A stretch of DNA of 45,311 nucleotides, taken from assembly GCA_028713635.1 (NCBI GenBank), contig JAQTNX010000004.1, positions 1 through 45,311 on the forward strand, written 5' to 3'. A program made the translations under genes and the position numbers. Shown here piece after piece: positions 4,742 through 17,460 of the stretch (its first letter is position 1; every line of letters begins with the position of its first letter). This DNA comes from Candidatus Bipolaricaulis sp. GTDB lineage: Bacteria > Bipolaricaulota > Bipolaricaulia > UBA7950 > UBA9294. A model generated the notes under the pieces. That model saw only the letters and a program-made list of their open reading frames with translations. It made no database searches and was not told the DNA's origin.

Positions 4742-4788
4742 GTTCCCGCCTGCCGTGTGCCGTGTCGGGGGCGGGAACAGGGTATAAT
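4742..4788 (+). promoter_or_regulatory. inverted repeat plus TATAAT -10 box between nusA and rny
   Basis: 9-bp inverted repeat GTTCCCGCC/GGCGGGAAC (4742-4750/4770-4778) immediately followed by TATAAT at 4783-4788. Confidence 0.4.
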
Positions 4789-4824
4789 CGTCTCGGCGGC
4801 CTCACGGAAAGGAAGGAACAGAGC

Positions 4825-6342
4825 TTGAGCCCGGTCCTGAACTACCTTGGGTTGGCACTGAGTCTGATCGCGGCCATTGGGATCGGCCTGTTGATCGGCA
4901 GTGTCCCCCGCCGCCGCCGTGAGGGCGAGATTCTCCGAGCCGCTCAGGACGAGGCGGAGCAGGCCAAGAAGGAGCTGCTGCTTGAAGCGCGCCAGCAGGC
5001 TCAAGAGCTGCGCGACGAGGCGGAGGAGCGCGCGAAGCGTCGGGAGGAGGACGTTGCCCGCGCCGAGGAGCGGGTCGCCAAGCGCGAGGAGCGACTCGGG
5101 ACGCGCGCAACGTACCTCGAGAAGATCGAGGACTCGCTCCGCGCCGACGAGGAGGAACTCGTCAAGCTGAAGGACGAAGGGTCGAAGCTCCTCGAGCAGG
5201 GAAAGCACCAGCTGGAGCAGGTCGCCGGATGGACCCAGGATCAGGCCCGGGAGCACCTCCTCAAGGTCGTCGAGAACGACTCCCAGCGGTACTTCTCCCG
5301 GAAGGTCGAGGACATCGAGCGGCGCGCCAGAGAGGAGGCCGAGGAGCGGGCGGCCCACATCGTCGCGACCGCCGTTCAGCGCTACGCCTCCGAGTACGTC
5401 GAAGAGAGCACCGTCAGCTCGGTACCCCTCCCGTCGGAGGAATTCAAAGGCCGGATCATCGGGAGGGAAGGCCGCAACATCAAGACGTTCGAGGCGCTCA
5501 CCGGCGTCGAGCTTCTCGTCGACGACACGCCCGAGATGGTCGTCCTCTCGTGCTTCCACCCCCTGCGTCGTGAGGTTGCGCGCATGGCCCTCGCGCGGCT
5601 CATCGAGGACGGGCGCATCCACCCGGCGCAGATCGAGGAGAAGGTTCAGCGTGCCAAGGCACGACTCGCCGAACGGGTCAAGGAGGAAGGACGCAAGGCT
5701 GCCTTCGACCTGGGGATCGACCTCCACCCGGAGCTTGCGGCGCTCCTCGGGCGACTGCACTACCGGACGAGCTACGGGCAGAACCAGCTCGTGCACTCGA
5801 TCGAAGTGAGCGTGATCGCGAAGATCCTCGCCGAGGAGCTTGGGGTGAATTCCAAGAAGGCGAAGCGCGCCGGCCTGCTCCACGACATCGGCAAAGCCGT
5901 CGACCACGAGGTGGACGGCCCCCACGCGGTCATCAGCGCCGACCTTGCCCGTCGCTACGGCGAGGCCAAGGACGTGGTGCAAGCGATCGCGGCGCACCAC
6001 GAGGATGTTGAGCCGAGCGGAATCCTCGACATCCTGATCCAGGCCGCCGACACGTTGTCGGCGGCGCGCCCCGGCGCGCGACAGGAAACGTACGAGCGCT
6101 ACGTCCAGCGGCTGCACGATCTTGAGGAGCTGTGCCGGTCGTTCCCCGCGGTGCAGGAAGCGTATGCCATTCAAGCCGGCCGCGAGGTGCGGGTCATGGT
6201 GCAGCCGGACCGCGCGAGCGACGACGCGGCGGCGAAGATCGCCTACGACATCGCCCGGGCCATCGAGCAGGAGCTGAGCTACCCCGGTGAGATCAAGGTC
6301 AACGTGATCCGGCAGACGCAGTTCAGCGAGAGTGCCAAGTAG
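4825..6342 (+). CDS. rny: ribonuclease Y
   Basis: N-terminal TM, long coiled coil, KH (GRIIGREGRNIKTFEALTGVELLVDDTPE) and HD (LLHDIGKAVDHEVDGPHAVI) domains; TTG start at 4825 preceded by GGAAGGA. Confidence 0.95.
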   Translation: MSPVLNYLGLALSLIAAIGIGLLIGSVPRRRREGEILRAAQDEAEQAKKELLLEARQQAQELRDEAEERAKRREEDVARAEERVAKREERLGTRATYLEKIEDSLRADEEELVKLKDEGSKLLEQGKHQLEQVAGWTQDQAREHLLKVVENDSQRYFSRKVEDIERRAREEAEERAAHIVATAVQRYASEYVEESTVSSVPLPSEEFKGRIIGREGRNIKTFEALTGVELLVDDTPEMVVLSCFHPLRREVARMALARLIEDGRIHPAQIEEKVQRAKARLAERVKEEGRKAAFDLGIDLHPELAALLGRLHYRTSYGQNQLVHSIEVSVIAKILAEELGVNSKKAKRAGLLHDIGKAVDHEVDGPHAVISADLARRYGEAKDVVQAIAAHHEDVEPSGILDILIQAADTLSAARPGARQETYERYVQRLHDLEELCRSFPAVQEAYAIQAGREVRVMVQPDRASDDAAAKIAYDIARAIEQELSYPGEIKVNVIRQTQFSESAK

Positions 6343-10806: not shown

Positions 10807-10865
10807 CCCACCGTCCGGGGACGTCCCGGAAGCCATGTCAGGACGTGCAGGAGGGTCGGCCGACG

Positions 10866-11777
10866 ATGAACGCCCGTCACTTGATTTCGCTCGCAAGTCT
10901 CAGCTCGGAAGAGGTCTTCGAGATCCTCGAGACCGCCCGGAACCTCAAGCTTGAACACCGTGCGGGGATTCGCCACACCATGCTTGCAGGGAAGACCTTG
11001 GCAATGGTGTTCCAAAAGCCGTCCCTGCGGACCCGCGTGTCGTTCGAGGCTGGCATGGAGCAGCTCGGCGGGCACGCGATCTACCTCGGTCCGAGTGACA
11101 TCAAGCTCGGCGAGCGTGAGACGACGGAGGACATCGCCCTCAACCTGTCGCGGTTTGTGAACGGGATCATGGCGCGCGTCTTCAAGCACGAGTCCATCCT
11201 CGAGTTGGCCAAGCACTCGACGGTGCCGGTCATCAACGGCCTGTGCGATCTCCACCATCCGTGCCAGGGATTGGCCGACCTCTTGACTGTGTGGGAGAAG
11301 AAGCGCGGGTTCGAGGGACTGACGTTGACGTTCGTCGGGGACGGCAACAACGTCGCTCACTCCCTCATGGAGGGATGCGCCAAGGTCGGCATGGCGTTCC
11401 GCATTGCCTGTCCGAAAGGGTACGAGCCGGACGCGACGATCGTGGCGGCGGCGCGCGCCTTGGGGGCGTCGGTGGAGATCCTCCACGATCCGCTCGCCGC
11501 GGCGAGCGGCGCCGACGTGCTCTACACGGACGTCTGGGTAAGCATGGGACAGGAGTCGGAGGCGAAGTCGAAGCAGAACGCGTTCGACGGGTTCACGATC
11601 GACAAGAGGCTTCTGGGAGCCGCCAAGAAGGACGCGATCGTCATGCACTGCCTGCCCGCGCACTACGACGAGGAGATCACCTACGAGGCCTCGCGGAGCC
11701 CCGGAAGCGCGATCTTCGATCAGGCTGAGAACCGGATGCACGCGCAGAAGGCGGTCCTGGCGCTTCTCATGAAGTAG
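10866..11777 (+). CDS. argF: ornithine carbamoyltransferase
   Basis: FQKPSLRTRVSFEAGMEQLGGHAIYL (carbamoyl-P binding), HPCQGLADLLT, MHCLPAHYDEEIT. Confidence 0.94.
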   Translation: MNARHLISLASLSSEEVFEILETARNLKLEHRAGIRHTMLAGKTLAMVFQKPSLRTRVSFEAGMEQLGGHAIYLGPSDIKLGERETTEDIALNLSRFVNGIMARVFKHESILELAKHSTVPVINGLCDLHHPCQGLADLLTVWEKKRGFEGLTLTFVGDGNNVAHSLMEGCAKVGMAFRIACPKGYEPDATIVAAARALGASVEILHDPLAAASGADVLYTDVWVSMGQESEAKSKQNAFDGFTIDKRLLGAAKKDAIVMHCLPAHYDEEITYEASRSPGSAIFDQAENRMHAQKAVLALLMK

Positions 11778-11799
11778 GCACGTGAGGCAAGGAGGGACG

Positions 11800-12966
11800 A
11801 TGGAAGCCCGAGTCGGGGCGGAAGCGAAAGGGGACTGCCTCGTCGTTGCCCGACAGGCGGAGCGAGCGTCCGTGACCGTCGCCACGAAGAACCGGAACCT
11901 CTTGGAGACCGGAATCCGCACGGTTGCCGAGGCCGTTCTCGAGGCCCTCGGGACGCCGGGCGTCGCGATCGAGGTTCAGGATCAGGGAGCCCTCGACTAC
12001 GTCCTCGCTGCGCGGGTCGAGGCGGCTGTCCGGATGGTGCTCCCCGAGGCGAAGCTGATCCGCACTGAGCGGGTCGAGCGGGCGACGTCGGCCGCCGACC
12101 GGCCGCGCCGGAGTCGGCTCTACGCACCGGGAAACAACCCGCGGCTTCTCGTCGGGATCGACATCCACGGCGCCGACTGCGTTCTCCTCGATCTCGAGGA
12201 CTCCGTTCCGCTGGGAGACAAGGCCGCGGCGCGCGTGCTCGTGCGGCGTCTCCTCGCCGCCGTCCCATTCCCTGACGAAGTGTGGGTTCGGATCAACCCG
12301 CTCGACGCCGGGGGGAGAGAGGACTTGGCCGAGGTGCTCGAAGGGAGGCCGCACGGGGTGTGCCTGCCGAAGGCCGAGAGCGGCGAGGGCGTCCGCGACC
12401 TCGCGAAAGAGCTCGGGGAGATCGAGCGGCGCCTCGGCATCGACGTCGGCTCGACGCACATCATGCCGATCATCGAGACGGCGCGCGGCGTTCTCCGCTG
12501 TGAGGACGTGGCGGAGGCCGACGAGCGCGTTGCCGTGGTGGCGTTCGGTGCCGAGGACTACACCCGCGACGTGGGGGCGCGTAGGACTGGCGAAGCGCTC
12601 CTCTTTGCTCGATCGCGCGTCGTGGCGGCCGCCAAGGCGGCCGGCGTGCAGGCTTCGGACACCGTGTACGCCGACCTCGCGAACGACGCCGGTCTGGCCG
12701 AGGAGTGCGCGCGGGCCCGCGACCTTGGGTTCGACGGGAAAGGGGCCATCAACCCGCGGCAGATTCCGATCCTGCATCGCGCGTTCTCTCCGAGCGAGGA
12801 CGAGCTTGCGCAGGCGCGGACGATCGTGGACGCGGCGCGCGAAGCCGAGTCGCGGGGGCTTGGCGCGGTCGCCGTCGGCGGGCGGATGGTCGATCAGCCC
12901 GTCCTCGAGCGGGCGCGGCGGCTGATCAAGTACGCCGAGACGCTCGTCAAGGGAGGCACGGCATGA
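11800..12966 (+). CDS. CitD-CitE fusion: acyl-carrier-like N-terminal domain fused to citrate/citramalate lyase beta-type (HpcH/HpaI aldolase family) subunit
   Basis: N-terminal about 90 aa resembles CitD (VTVATKNRNLLETGIRTVAEAVLEALGTPGVAIEVQDQGALDYVLAARVEAAVRM); remainder CitE-like (RSRLYAPGNNPRLL, DCVLLDLEDSVPLGDKAAAR, GKGAINPRQI). Confidence 0.88.
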   Translation: MEARVGAEAKGDCLVVARQAERASVTVATKNRNLLETGIRTVAEAVLEALGTPGVAIEVQDQGALDYVLAARVEAAVRMVLPEAKLIRTERVERATSAADRPRRSRLYAPGNNPRLLVGIDIHGADCVLLDLEDSVPLGDKAAARVLVRRLLAAVPFPDEVWVRINPLDAGGREDLAEVLEGRPHGVCLPKAESGEGVRDLAKELGEIERRLGIDVGSTHIMPIIETARGVLRCEDVAEADERVAVVAFGAEDYTRDVGARRTGEALLFARSRVVAAAKAAGVQASDTVYADLANDAGLAEECARARDLGFDGKGAINPRQIPILHRAFSPSEDELAQARTIVDAAREAESRGLGAVAVGGRMVDQPVLERARRLIKYAETLVKGGTA

Positions 12967-14510
12967 TCCAAAACGCCCTAGGACGTGAGATCCCCGACCG
13001 GATTGGGAGCCGCACGGTGGTTCCGTTCGGCGGCGCCTTCGCGAAGACCGCGACAGGGACGAAGGCGCCCCGGCCGCAGAAGGTGGCCGCGCAGCGCGAG
13101 GACAAGGTGCTCCCGTCGATCGAAGCGGCGATCGAGGCGTGCGGACTCTCGAATGGGATGACGATCTCGTTCCATCATTCGTTCCGCGAAGGCGACCGCG
13201 TCATCAACCTCGTCCTCGACGCGTGCGCCCGCATGGGGCTGAAGGACCTGCGGATCTGCCCGACGGCCTTGTTCGGGGTCCACGAGCCCATTGTCGGGCA
13301 CATCGAGTCCGGCGTCGTGTCGAGGATCGAGGGATCGATGAACGGTCCCGTCGGCGCGTTCATCAGCAAGGGCGGAAAGCTGCGCGAGCCGGCGGTCCTC
13401 CGCTCGCACGGGGGGCGCTGGCGGGCGATCGAAGCAGGGACGATGGAGATCGACGTCGCGTTCATCGCCGCGCCGCAGGCAGATTCGTACGGAAACGCGA
13501 CCGGCATCCCCGGCAAGACCCCCTGCGGCCCCATCACGTTCCAGGCCGTCGACGCCCAGTACGCGCGACAGACGGTCGTCGTGACCAACGACCTCGCGCC
13601 CTACCCCGTCTTCCCGATGGAGATCCAGCAAGGGTGGACCGACTACGTGGTCGTCGTCGACGAGATCGGCGACCCGGCGTCGATCACCTCGGGGACGCTG
13701 CAGCTCACGAATTCGCCGACGAACCTCCTGATCGCGCGGCTTACGGTGGAGGCGGTCAAGGCGTCGGGGTACTTCAAGGACGGGTTCAGCTTCCAGGGCG
13801 GGGCCGGAGGCCTCTCGCTCGCGGCGACCAAGTTCCTCGGCGACGAGATGGAGAAGGCGAAGATCGTCGGCTCCTTCGGGATGGGCGGCGGGACGAAGAT
13901 CCTTGTCGACATGCTGCGGCGCGGCCAGATCCGCGCCATCCTCGACGGGCAGGCGTTTGACCTCGACGCGATCGCCTCGCTCCGCGAGGACCCGGCGCAC
14001 GTGATGATGGACCCGGGGATGTACGCGAACTACGACTCGCGCGGCTGCTCGACCTACAAGCTGGACGCCGCCTTCCTCGGTGCGACCGAAGTCGACCTCG
14101 ACTTCAACGTCAACGTGAACACGCACTCCGACGGGCAGCTCTTGCACGGGATCGGCGGCCATCAGGATGTGGCCGCCGGCGCGGCGATGACGATGATCAC
14201 GCTTCCCGCCTTGCGCGGGCGAATCCCTCCGGTTGTCGACCGGGTGACCACCGTGACGACGCCGGGGGAGGTCATCGACGTGATCGTCACGGAGCGAGGG
14301 CTTGCCGTGAACCCGCGCCGCGGAGACCTTCGCGAGCGCTTCCAGGCTGCAGGGCTCCCCGTGCGGGAGCTCGCGGACATCAAGCGGGACGCGGACCGGT
14401 ACATCCAGCCGGTGCGCCGCCCCGTCTTTGGGGACGAGGTCATCGCCGCGATCGAATGGCGGGACGGGACCGTGATCGACGTAGTGCGAAAGGTGGACGG
14501 ATGGCAGTGA
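12963..14510 (+). CDS. citF: citrate lyase alpha-type subunit (CitF family CoA-transferase)
   Basis: MIQNALGREIPDRIGSRTVVPFGGAFA, FHHSFREGDRVINLVLD, GSFGMGGGTKILVDML, GIGGHQDVAAGAAMTMI; 4-nt ATGA overlap with the upstream gene. Confidence 0.92.
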   Translation: MIQNALGREIPDRIGSRTVVPFGGAFAKTATGTKAPRPQKVAAQREDKVLPSIEAAIEACGLSNGMTISFHHSFREGDRVINLVLDACARMGLKDLRICPTALFGVHEPIVGHIESGVVSRIEGSMNGPVGAFISKGGKLREPAVLRSHGGRWRAIEAGTMEIDVAFIAAPQADSYGNATGIPGKTPCGPITFQAVDAQYARQTVVVTNDLAPYPVFPMEIQQGWTDYVVVVDEIGDPASITSGTLQLTNSPTNLLIARLTVEAVKASGYFKDGFSFQGGAGGLSLAATKFLGDEMEKAKIVGSFGMGGGTKILVDMLRRGQIRAILDGQAFDLDAIASLREDPAHVMMDPGMYANYDSRGCSTYKLDAAFLGATEVDLDFNVNVNTHSDGQLLHGIGGHQDVAAGAAMTMITLPALRGRIPPVVDRVTTVTTPGEVIDVIVTERGLAVNPRRGDLRERFQAAGLPVRELADIKRDADRYIQPVRRPVFGDEVIAAIEWRDGTVIDVVRKVDGWQ

Positions 14511-15037
14511 GAGATGAGATCCGGAAGATCCTGCCGGAGGTTGACGAGATCCGCGATCAGGGTCTGCGCGACAAGGTGCTCGCGACGTGGGAGGCGGGCC
14601 TCGCCCGTGGCGGTTGGAGGCCCGCCGACATCGCGCGGATTCCGTTCACGCTCCTGAAGCCGGTGAAGATCAGCTTCGCCGACCACGTGCGCAGTGTGAC
14701 CAAGATCTGCGTCGCAGTCTCTGAGACGTTTGATGAGATCTACAAGGGTGAGCTCAAGCTCGACCGCGACATCCTGATCGCCGGCGCGTTGCTCCACGAC
14801 GTGGGCAAGCTGCTCGAGATTCAGGAGAAGGACGGCAAGTTCGGCAAGTCGAGGGACGGTGCCCTCGTGCGGCACCCGTTTTCCGGGCTTGCCCTCGCCG
14901 ACGCGCAGGGACTGCCCGCCGAGGTGCTTCACATCATCGGTGCCCACTCGAAAGAGGGCGACCACGGGAAGCGGACGGCCGAGGCGATCATCCTGCATTT
15001 GGCGGACTTCATGAACTTCGATCCGTTGGAGGGATAA
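14501..15037 (+). CDS. HD domain protein (putative metal-dependent phosphohydrolase)
   Basis: HVRSVTKIC, ALLHDVGKLLEI, HPFSGLALA, HIIGAHSKEGD; start overlaps the citF stop. Confidence 0.85.
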   Translation: MAVRDEIRKILPEVDEIRDQGLRDKVLATWEAGLARGGWRPADIARIPFTLLKPVKISFADHVRSVTKICVAVSETFDEIYKGELKLDRDILIAGALLHDVGKLLEIQEKDGKFGKSRDGALVRHPFSGLALADAQGLPAEVLHIIGAHSKEGDHGKRTAEAIILHLADFMNFDPLEG

Positions 15038-15042
15038 GGCGC

Positions 15043-16314
15043 ATGGGACAGACGTTCGCCCAGAAGGTGCTGGCGAAGAAGGCGGGACTGCCGCGAGTCG
15101 AAGTCGGGCAGATTGTCGACGTCGAGCCCGACGTCTGCATGTCGCACGACAACACCGCGGCGATTGCGAAGACGTTCGCCAAGATCGGCGTCGAGCGCGT
15201 CAAGAACCCGGAGCGGTTCGTCGTCGTCCTCGACCACACCGTGCCCGCCTCCACCGAGGAGTACGCGAAGGGGCACAAGGAGATCCGCGAGTTCGTCGCC
15301 AAACAGGGGATCAAGGCGTTCTACGACGTCGGCGTCGGCGTCTGCCACCAGGTACTCCCCGAGATGGGGTACGCGCTCCCCGGCCGCCTCATCGTCGGCT
15401 CGGACTCCCACACCACCGCCTACGGGGCACTCGGCGCCTTCTCCGCGGGCGTCGGTCGCTCGGAGATGGCGGCCCTCTACGCCACGTCGCGCATCTGGCT
15501 CAAGACCCCGGCGTCGCTCAAGATCGACGTGCGCGGGAAGCTGAAGGAGCCGGTGACGTCGAAGGACCTCGTTCTCAAGATCATCGGCGACATCGGCGCC
15601 GACGGAGCGCTCTACAAGTCCGTCGAGTACGCGGGTGAGGCGATCGAGGCGATGAGCGTTGCGTCGCGCCTCGTCCTCTCGAACATGGCGATCGAGATGG
15701 GCGCGAAGAACGGCTACTGCGCGCCCGACAAGAAGACGTTCGCGTTCCTCGAGCCGCGCGCCCAGGCGGAGTACACGCCCATCTACCCTGACCCCGACGC
15801 CGAGTACGAGAAGGTGCTGACCTACGACGCGGCGAAGCTCGGCCCTCACGTCGCCAAGTCGCACACCGTCGACAACGTCAGCCCCGTTGAGGAGGTCGAG
15901 GGGACGAAGATCGACCAGGCGCTCCTTGGGACGTGCACCAACGGCCGGCTCGAGGACCTGCACCTGGCGGCCCGCTACCTGGAGGGCAGGAAGCTGGCAA
16001 AGGGCGTCCGGATGATCGTCCTTCCTGCGTCGCGCGAGATCCTGCTCGACGCGATGCGAGAGGGGTTGGTCGAGATCTTCGTGCGGGCGGGCGCCATGGT
16101 CCTCAACCCCGGCTGCGGCCCGTGCCTCGGCGCACATCAGGGCGTGCTCGCCGCGGGCGAGGTCTGCATCTCGACGGCGAACCGGAACTTCCAGGGGCGT
16201 ATGGGGTCGAACGAGGCGGCGACGTACCTCGCCTCGCCGGCGACGGTCGCCGCGTCCGCCGTGACCGGCGTGATCACCGATCCGAGGAAAGCCGTACGTG
16301 GAGGTGGCGCATGA
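15043..16314 (+). CDS. aconitase superfamily large subunit (LeuC/HacA-type dehydratase)
   Basis: VGSDSHTTAYGALGAFSAGVGRSEMA, LGTCTNGRLEDL, NPGCGPCLGAHQGVLAAGEVCISTANRNFQGRMG (three 4Fe-4S cysteines). Confidence 0.94.
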   Translation: MGQTFAQKVLAKKAGLPRVEVGQIVDVEPDVCMSHDNTAAIAKTFAKIGVERVKNPERFVVVLDHTVPASTEEYAKGHKEIREFVAKQGIKAFYDVGVGVCHQVLPEMGYALPGRLIVGSDSHTTAYGALGAFSAGVGRSEMAALYATSRIWLKTPASLKIDVRGKLKEPVTSKDLVLKIIGDIGADGALYKSVEYAGEAIEAMSVASRLVLSNMAIEMGAKNGYCAPDKKTFAFLEPRAQAEYTPIYPDPDAEYEKVLTYDAAKLGPHVAKSHTVDNVSPVEEVEGTKIDQALLGTCTNGRLEDLHLAARYLEGRKLAKGVRMIVLPASREILLDAMREGLVEIFVRAGAMVLNPGCGPCLGAHQGVLAAGEVCISTANRNFQGRMGSNEAATYLASPATVAASAVTGVITDPRKAVRGGGA

Positions 16315-16808
16315 TCGAGGGCAAGGTCTGGAAGTATGCGGACGACGTCAACACCGACGTCATCTTCGCCGGCAAGTACACCTACAAGCCGATGACCGCG
16401 GCCGAGATGGCCGAGCACGCGCTCGAGGACCTCGATCCGACGTTTGCCAAGGGCGTGAAGCCGGGCGACATCATCGTCGCCGGTGCCAACTTCGGTTGCG
16501 GCTCGTCTCGCGAGCAGGCAGCCACATGCGTGAAGGCGTCGGGCGTCGCCGCCGTCATCGCCGTCTCGTTCTCGCGGATCTTCTTCCGGAACGCCATCAA
16601 CGAGGGCCTGCCGGTCGTCGAGCTTGCCTCCGGGACGTCGATGATCGCGAAGGACGACACCGTCAAGATCGACTTCGACAAGGGCGTCGTCACGCACAAA
16701 GGGAAGGAGTACCGCTTCCCGCCTCTGCCCAAGGAAGTCCTCGCCATCCTGAACGACGGCGGGCTCATCCCTCACGTCAAGAAGGCGCTGGCTGCGACGA
16801 AGCCGTAG
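16311..16808 (+). CDS. aconitase superfamily small subunit (LeuD/HacB-type dehydratase)
   Basis: DVNTDVIFAGKYTYKPM, GANFGCGSSREQAATCVKASGVAAVIAVSFSRIFFRNAINEGLP; ATGA overlap with the large subunit. Confidence 0.93.
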   Translation: MIEGKVWKYADDVNTDVIFAGKYTYKPMTAAEMAEHALEDLDPTFAKGVKPGDIIVAGANFGCGSSREQAATCVKASGVAAVIAVSFSRIFFRNAINEGLPVVELASGTSMIAKDDTVKIDFDKGVVTHKGKEYRFPPLPKEVLAILNDGGLIPHVKKALAATKP

Positions 16809-16839: not shown

Positions 16840-17460
16840 CTACCGCGGCTCGGCGGAGGCCTTCGCAGCATCCCACTGCGGTGCCTGCTTGAGGCAGAAG
16901 GCGCGAGCGACGGCGATCGCCCTCGTGATCTGGTTCGCGTTCAGGTGGACGCGCTGCGTCTTCGGATCGAGGACGAGCCACGGGCAGTTCTTCACGGCGC
17001 GAGCGGGGTGCTCGTCGCGCACGGAGATCGTCTGCAGGATCGCGTTCGCGTCGTAGAGGCTGACGGGCTGTAGGTGGATCTTCTCGCCCCACAACAGGAC
17101 GAGCGTCAGCGCGAGGACGATGTTGCTGACCGCGCTTCGGCCGCGCTCGGCGGTGCCGCGCTTGAAGAGCTCCCAGTGAACCTTGCTCGGGAAGATGTAC
17201 GGGGGGATCGCGCGCGGGTGACACGCCGTGAGGACGTCCTGGACCGGGACGCCAAGGTCCTTTGCGAACGCGCGGATCAGAGCGCGGTCCTCCTCGGGGA
17301 CCCACTCGTCGAGATCGCTCTTGCGTAGGGACAGCGGGGTGTCGGCATTGACCCCGCGAATCGCCCCGAGGGCGGCCAGCCAGATGTCGGAGTCTTCAGA
17401 CTCCGCAACCACGACATCGTCCGCCATCAGCACGATCCTGAGCTTCGCGTGGAGCGCCAT
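16840..17460 (-). CDS. conserved-looking hypothetical protein, 206 aa
   Basis: Uninterrupted ORF with balanced composition and plausible start; no family recognised. Confidence 0.6.
   Translation of the reverse strand: MALHAKLRIVLMADDVVVAESEDSDIWLAALGAIRGVNADTPLSLRKSDLDEWVPEEDRALIRAFAKDLGVPVQDVLTACHPRAIPPYIFPSKVHWELFKRGTAERGRSAVSNIVLALTLVLLWGEKIHLQPVSLYDANAILQTISVRDEHPARAVKNCPWLVLDPKTQRVHLNANQITRAIAVARAFCLKQAPQWDAAKASAEPR

Follow-up and report, generated by a model that had tools for sequence, protein, structure and literature searches.

We analysed a five-gene operon, citDE-citF-HD-acoL-acoS, in a 45,311-nt stretch of DNA from a Candidatus Bipolaricaulota metagenome-assembled genome (MAG). 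The stretch, here called the window, is contig C4 of this genome (G000; 2.3 Mb, 88% complete), and coordinates are positions within it unless another locus is named. The operon is best explained, with a probability of about 0.55, as encoding a coenzyme A (CoA)-dependent citrate lyase that would operate without a covalent carrier and would be joined to isocitrate by the hydratase AcoLS. This explanation is preferred because of a lost carrier serine, the absence of citC, citX and citG, the retention of catalytic residues, the position of CitF in its tree, a conserved gene order and neighbours of the citryl-CoA type. As far as sequence can say, the function is citrate lyase-like; two defining features of the acyl carrier protein (ACP)-dependent enzyme, the carrier serine and CitCXG, are missing.

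A citrate lyase-like complex with a replaced carrier serine

Textbook citrate lyase depends on a unique prosthetic group derived from CoA and on three helper proteins. Its CitF subunit forms citryl-ACP, which CitE then cleaves to oxaloacetate and acetyl-ACP; the prosthetic group of Klebsiella pneumoniae CitD is carried by a serine that we take to be Ser14, in the motif GTLESSD (GTLES14SD). In the window, a CitD (gamma, ACP-like) domain (PF06857, residues 2-78) is fused to CitE (beta, C-C lyase; PF03328, residues 104-319) in a single gene, citDE (11800..12966, + strand), and alignment of CitD domains sets GAEAKGD against GTLESSD, with Lys10 (codon 11827..11829, +) at the carrier-serine position and not one serine or threonine in residues 1-23. 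Wherever the N-terminus of a CitDE fusion was intact, it had Lys or Arg at this position, within GSDAKGDC-type motifs in Bipolaricaulota family f1 and GSEERSDA-type motifs in family f3, and two archaeal loci are likewise serine-less (Lys in L249, Arg in L251). Stand-alone CitD proteins kept the serine in 50 of the 52 cases with a readable motif, the exceptions being L103 (Lys) and L041 (ambiguous). The L103 protein (4748-5053), from a member of the Negativicutes, reads GFEQKND, and judging from it the carrier serine may have been lost more than once. No description of a serine-less CitD was found in the literature searched.

The helper proteins were missing as well: CitC and CitX had no match in any of 100 Bipolaricaulota genomes and CitG none in the 33 genomes of the family, in searches that detect all three E. 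coli proteins. A sequence-only reading of the window had seen no citC, citX or citG nearby and had warned that a textbook citrate lyase is not self-evident; the absence extends genome-wide, and the warning was right for a stronger reason, the replacement of the carrier serine itself. A full citCXG set elsewhere in the genome, which that reading had named beforehand as part of the evidence that would speak against it, was not found in G000. Its description of the locus also held. The five genes all lie on the + strand and are near-contiguous, with a 4-nt overlap between citDE and citF (ATGA at 12963), a 10-nt overlap between citF and HD, a 5-nt gap before acoL and a 4-nt overlap between acoL and acoS. 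Pfam and NCBIfam bore out a lyase complex and a LeuCD-type hydratase with an HD protein between them (ACP (MdcD/CitD) plus HpcH_HpaI, CitF, HD, Aconitase, Aconitase_C).

The catalytic parts are largely retained. The CitE domain keeps 33 of the 38 residues that are invariant in 30 canonical CitE proteins. CitF (12963..14510, +; 515 aa), a citrate lyase alpha-type CoA-transferase also assigned from PDB 2hj0/1xr4, scored 550.6 bits against the NCBIfam citF equivalog TIGR01584 (cut-off 501.45) and keeps 78 of the 96 residues invariant in canonical CitF; class-specific changes include a Gly to His replacement before the GGH motif, present in 31 of 31 fusion-type sequences. A tree of 109 CitF proteins (midpoint root, quick method) fell into two sides (Shimodaira-Hasegawa-like approximate likelihood ratio test, SH-aLRT, 90), one holding the Bipolaricaulota fusion-type proteins, most archaeal loci and the loci with citryl-CoA lyase, the other all 47 citC-bearing loci. 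The AlphaFold2 (AF2) model of CitDE, whose confidence is weak at residues 9-11 around Lys10, resembles CoA-dependent CitE-like lyases, the nearest folds being CLYBL and the malyl-CoA and citramalyl-CoA lyases. Characterised CitE-like enzymes outside the textbook complex take free CoA thioesters as substrates (PMC3832036). Compared with the ACP-dependent CitDEF(CXG) of Klebsiella and others, the system is thus alike in its CitF equivalog, CitE fold and catalytic residues, CitD domain and D-E-F order, but differs in the CitD-CitE fusion, the exchange of the carrier serine for Lys or Arg, the lack of CitC, CitX and CitG, and a CitF that sits on a separate side of the tree.

In the simplest reading, this CitDE/CitF family would work with free CoA thioesters as its normal mode. 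CitF would convert acetyl-CoA (or another acyl-CoA) and citrate to citryl-CoA and acetate, and CitE would split citryl-CoA to oxaloacetate and acetyl-CoA. AcoLS, together with a PrpD-family dehydratase, would interconvert citrate, cis-aconitate and isocitrate. The link to 2-oxoglutarate would be provided by DH373, an isocitrate-type dehydrogenase of 373 aa. Dimroth and Eggerer reportedly observed in 1975 that isolated Klebsiella subunits are active on free CoA thioesters. We infer the free CoA carrier, citrate as the substrate and a role for the Lys or Arg, which might, as a guess, grip the CoA phosphates non-covalently. On general thermodynamic grounds cleavage is the easier direction, and synthesis would require either a high acetate concentration or a strong draw towards 2-oxoglutarate.

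Conservation of the operon and exchange of citryl-CoA enzymes

A protein search found CitDE matches in half of the 100 Bipolaricaulota genomes, full-length fusions being confined to families f1 and f3. The order citDE-citF-HD was present in 35 of the 39 loci read, although in one of these two extra genes stand ahead of HD. Of the remaining four, one is scrambled by a wrongly called frame and the rest are truncated at contig ends; where the contig is long enough, acoL nearly always comes after HD. Because it is conserved across the phylum, this arrangement is not due to chance. In four f3 loci the operon is extended by DH373, whose nearest solved structures are isocitrate and homoisocitrate dehydrogenases, and by a PrpD-family protein; in a fifth (L132, genome G017) DH373 follows acoS and is itself followed by a second LeuC/LeuD-type pair (11109-13604). 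That pair occupies the position held by PrpD in other genomes, as though one dehydratase had been exchanged for the other. The DH373-PrpD pair of G000 lies on a separate contig, C58 (L199). Upstream, argF (10845..11777, +; ornithine carbamoyltransferase, PF02729/PF00185 and TIGR00658 over cut-off) ends 22 nt before citDE and is probably the first gene of a transcription unit shared with the cit operon, which it precedes in 28 of the 39 loci. Its adjacency would suit either direction of the pathway, glutamate-family synthesis or breakdown.

The same partner genes also stand beside other citryl-CoA enzymes. Citryl-CoA lyase (CCL) is an enzyme type that acts on free citryl-CoA, and CCL proteins over the NCBIfam subfamily cut-offs were found in Calditrichota, Caldisericota and Thermoplasmatales. 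A divergent Calditrichota/Caldisericota cluster combines citF, a TrmB-type regulator, CCL, the same HD protein, the same dehydrogenase (here of 372 aa) and PrpD, and a Thermoplasmatales genome has the order HD-citF-CCL; the fetched loci in which CitF adjoins CCL hold no CitD at all. In genome G085 (L126, 3461-6870) an ATP-citrate-lyase-like pair (one SucC-like protein and one SucD-like protein fused to CCL) is inserted into the cit operon and separates citF from HD. G060 gave no match to CitDE, and there a pair of this kind accompanies HD and PrpD. Since CCL, the ATP-citrate-lyase-like pair and CitDE swap beside the same partners, three routes to make or split citryl-CoA alternate at this position. 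The citryl-CoA synthetase/lyase (CCS/CCL) of Hydrogenobacter and ATP-citrate lyase have in common a citryl-CoA intermediate with free CoA, and CCL-type enzymes replace CitE beside a homologous CitF in the three lineages named above; the difference lies in the proposed activation by a CoA-transferase, which would need no ATP, and in a lyase of the CitE (TIM-barrel) family. A separate observation concerns two Heimdallarchaeota/Asgard loci, L054 (1251-7536) and L057 (1272-7539), where an operon encodes an isocitrate dehydrogenase (IDH)-like protein, aconitase, CitD with its serine kept, CitE and CitF, and where citC was not found in the fetched stretches; in this operon, too, citrate lyase is coupled to isocitrate metabolism.

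The HD-domain (HDIG) protein (14501..15037, +; 178 aa, PF01966, TIGR00277) is best grouped with the lyase, not the hydratase, because it accompanies citDE/citF and citryl-CoA enzymes in other lineages. Direct linkage was seen in two archaeal genomes, to both citDE and citF in one from Methanomicrobia and to citDE in one from Thermoplasmata, and 11 of the 14 genomes reached through the other loci gave a strong match. Alignment identified H62, D100, R124-H125, H149-S150, H166 and D169 as invariant. The AF2 model (predicted local distance difference test score, pLDDT, 90.8) has an HD fold, with YhaM as nearest relative, and the fold search returned generic HD relatives only. In the Calditrichota/Caldisericota copies of L044, L045 and L050, H99 is replaced by Ala (Ala-Asp for His-Asp) with the other metal ligands kept, a change from which these copies may not be classical phosphohydrolases.

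The substrate and the alternative readings

The hydratase is formed by AcoL (15043..16314, +; 423 aa, PF00330), an aconitase-superfamily large subunit of the HacA/LeuC type that scored 562.9 bits against TIGR01343, over its cut-off, and AcoS (16311..16808, +; 165 aa, PF00694, TIGR02087 over cut-off). AcoL has the Fe-S cysteines (GTCTNG and NPGCGPC), and AcoS has the GSSRE motif and a substrate-recognition loop, KYTYKPM; this small-subunit loop sets substrate preference (PMC7308503). Its variants YTYK, YTYQ and YTYA share a conserved YTY core with one extra residue relative to isopropylmalate isomerase (IPMI) and homoaconitase (YLRT in the methanogen homoaconitase). AcoLS therefore resembles the methanogen IPMI/homoaconitase enzymes (HacA/LeuC-LeuD) in having two subunits, the Fe-S cysteines and GSSRE, but differs in the loop and its insertion and in falling below all equivalog cut-offs, both those of LeuC/LeuD (TIGR02083, 489.7 against 610.65; TIGR02084, 171 against 245.85) and those of methanogen HacA/HacB (NF040615, 500.4 against 550; NF040625, 169.2 against 230). 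In the comparison with DmdAB only the broad LeuD/DmdB family model was reached. We rejected an ordinary leucine isomerase, as G000 has LeuC-like, LeuB-like and HMGL-type synthase genes grouped on another contig, C1, the equivalogs are missed and the loop differs.

Judged from these genes and their neighbours, we rate citrate as roughly twice as likely a substrate as all the others combined. Six MAGs at least 92% complete (G076, G092, G002, G017, G026 and G027) contain no citrate synthase domain, ATP-citrate-lyase-like domain or HMGL-type synthase, and CitDE-CitF is for this reason their only recognisable citrate-type enzyme. The statement is limited to these genomes: G000 has no citrate-synthase domain match either, but given its aclA-like gene (L200) a lack of ATP-citrate lyase is unsafe to assume there.

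Several points weigh against a carrier-free lyase acting on citrate. Besides the aclA-like gene, which lies at a contig end, G000 has a single-chain aconitase and an IDH-like gene, so that with a citrate-to-2-oxoglutarate set already there the operon could act on a citrate homologue; the aclA/aclB-IDH-aconitase set is found in many relatives (among them G004, G007-G009 and G012). The AcoS loop is like that of neither IPMI nor homoaconitase, which leaves the substrate not readable from it, and AcoLS passes subfamily models only (hacA family, IPMI_arch, LeuD/DmdB family) and no equivalog. CitE scored 272 bits against the citE equivalog TIGR01588, below the cut-off of 443.4, and a role for HD is not part of the explanation. 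All genomes compared are MAGs, and the absences are accordingly provisional.

These points bear most directly on a first alternative, somewhat unlikely in our estimate, in which the same CoA-dependent mechanism serves another substrate (homocitrate, citramalate or some further 2-hydroxy-diacid that acetyl-CoA and a 2-oxo acid would form) and AcoLS, PrpD and DH373 carry out 2-oxo-acid chain elongation or its reverse. The ATP-citrate lyase-IDH-aconitase sets may make the operon unneeded for citrate, the two hydro-lyases and IDH-type enzyme recall the homocitrate route, and DH373, like the unusual AcoS loop, leaves room for this, as it scores level with homoisocitrate dehydrogenase. Against it, CitF passes the citrate equivalog, and the enzymes that swap with or neighbour CitDE are CCL and ATP-citrate-lyase-like. 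Lysine synthesis through homocitrate (LysW/LysX) was rejected because LysX is absent, with a best score in G000 of 33 bits against a cut-off of 275.6 and none over the cut-off in the genus or in many operon carriers, and a 2-methylcitrate cycle because, by chemical reasoning, it would give a tertiary alcohol that DH373 could not oxidise. Citramalate is unlikely. The sequence-only reading had drawn a parallel to citramalate lyase plus mesaconase, which held up poorly: the clostridial cluster shares a CitDEF-type complex, but it also includes citCXG, a mesaconase of the class I fumarase type (PMC4682846) and methylaspartate ammonia-lyase, none of which was found here. Methylaspartate ammonia-lyase had no match in the genome or genus (G000, G076, G077), and on these grounds the methylaspartate/citramalate route was rejected for the genus. 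That reading's broader proposal, a complex and hydratase acting in sequence on a citrate-type 2-hydroxy acid, stood as to the pairing and best fits citrate-isocitrate-2-oxoglutarate; its citramalate part is unlikely. Strong methylaspartate ammonia-lyase matches came only from G066 and G067, of the sister family f2, which have a stand-alone CitE-like lyase with SucC/SucD-like genes (L148, L149). In G066 the match is on the same contig (C31) as the CitE-like locus, and the arrangement looks like a methylaspartate-to-citramalyl-CoA glutamate pathway.

Far less probable is a conventional, carrier-dependent citrate lyase in which the prosthetic group sits on another residue, attached by divergent enzymes that might include the HD protein. 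That a CitD domain is retained at all, that a serine directly follows the Arg in the f3 branch (ERSDA) and that most genomes with this kind of CitF have an HD orthologue would suit it, but the window protein and most f1 proteins read K-G-D-C with no nearby Ser or Thr, CitC, CitX and CitG were nowhere found in the genomes searched, and CitF also adjoins CCL where CitD is lacking. Least probable of all is a CitD domain kept as a structural remnant on a CitE-like acyl-CoA lyase or thioesterase of side activity, outside central metabolism, which would fit the varied CoA substrates of many CitE-like enzymes (PMC3832036) and the nearest folds of CitDE, but not the preservation across the whole phylum of a tight operon that includes CitF, AcoLS, DH373 and PrpD, nor the only recognisable citrate-type enzyme of several near-complete genomes.

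Wider implications and neighbouring observations

If the CoA-dependent, carrier-free citrate lyase is right, a large family lacking the attachment serine and every helper would show that citrate lyase can do without its carrier, and the label 'citrate lyase' given by automatic annotation in these phyla would mask different chemistry. It would also offer a concrete, testable way in which bacteria that have neither citrate synthase nor ATP-citrate lyase could link acetyl-CoA to 2-oxoglutarate. The passages on Bipolaricaulota genomes in two published studies report an incomplete tricarboxylic acid (TCA) cycle and amino-acid use, and do not describe a CitDE-CitF complex (PMC6092417; PMC3267732). 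We tentatively suggest that, in Bipolaricaulota and some archaea, a carrier-free and ATP-free citrate lyase of this CoA-transferase type might have taken over from citrate synthase (or from ATP-citrate lyase) in connecting acetyl-CoA/oxaloacetate with 2-oxoglutarate, within an unrecognised half-TCA module. Its members could, with similar caution, be CitDE/CitF or CCL/CitF, HD, AcoLS and/or PrpD, and the 373-aa dehydrogenase.

Behind the operon, a convergent open reading frame (16840-17460, - strand; 206 aa) has no Pfam or NCBIfam match. Elsewhere, L055 and L056, from MAGs labelled as Treponema and Syntrophaceae, are near-identical citDE-citF loci with identical CitDE; probably one of the two is misbinned.

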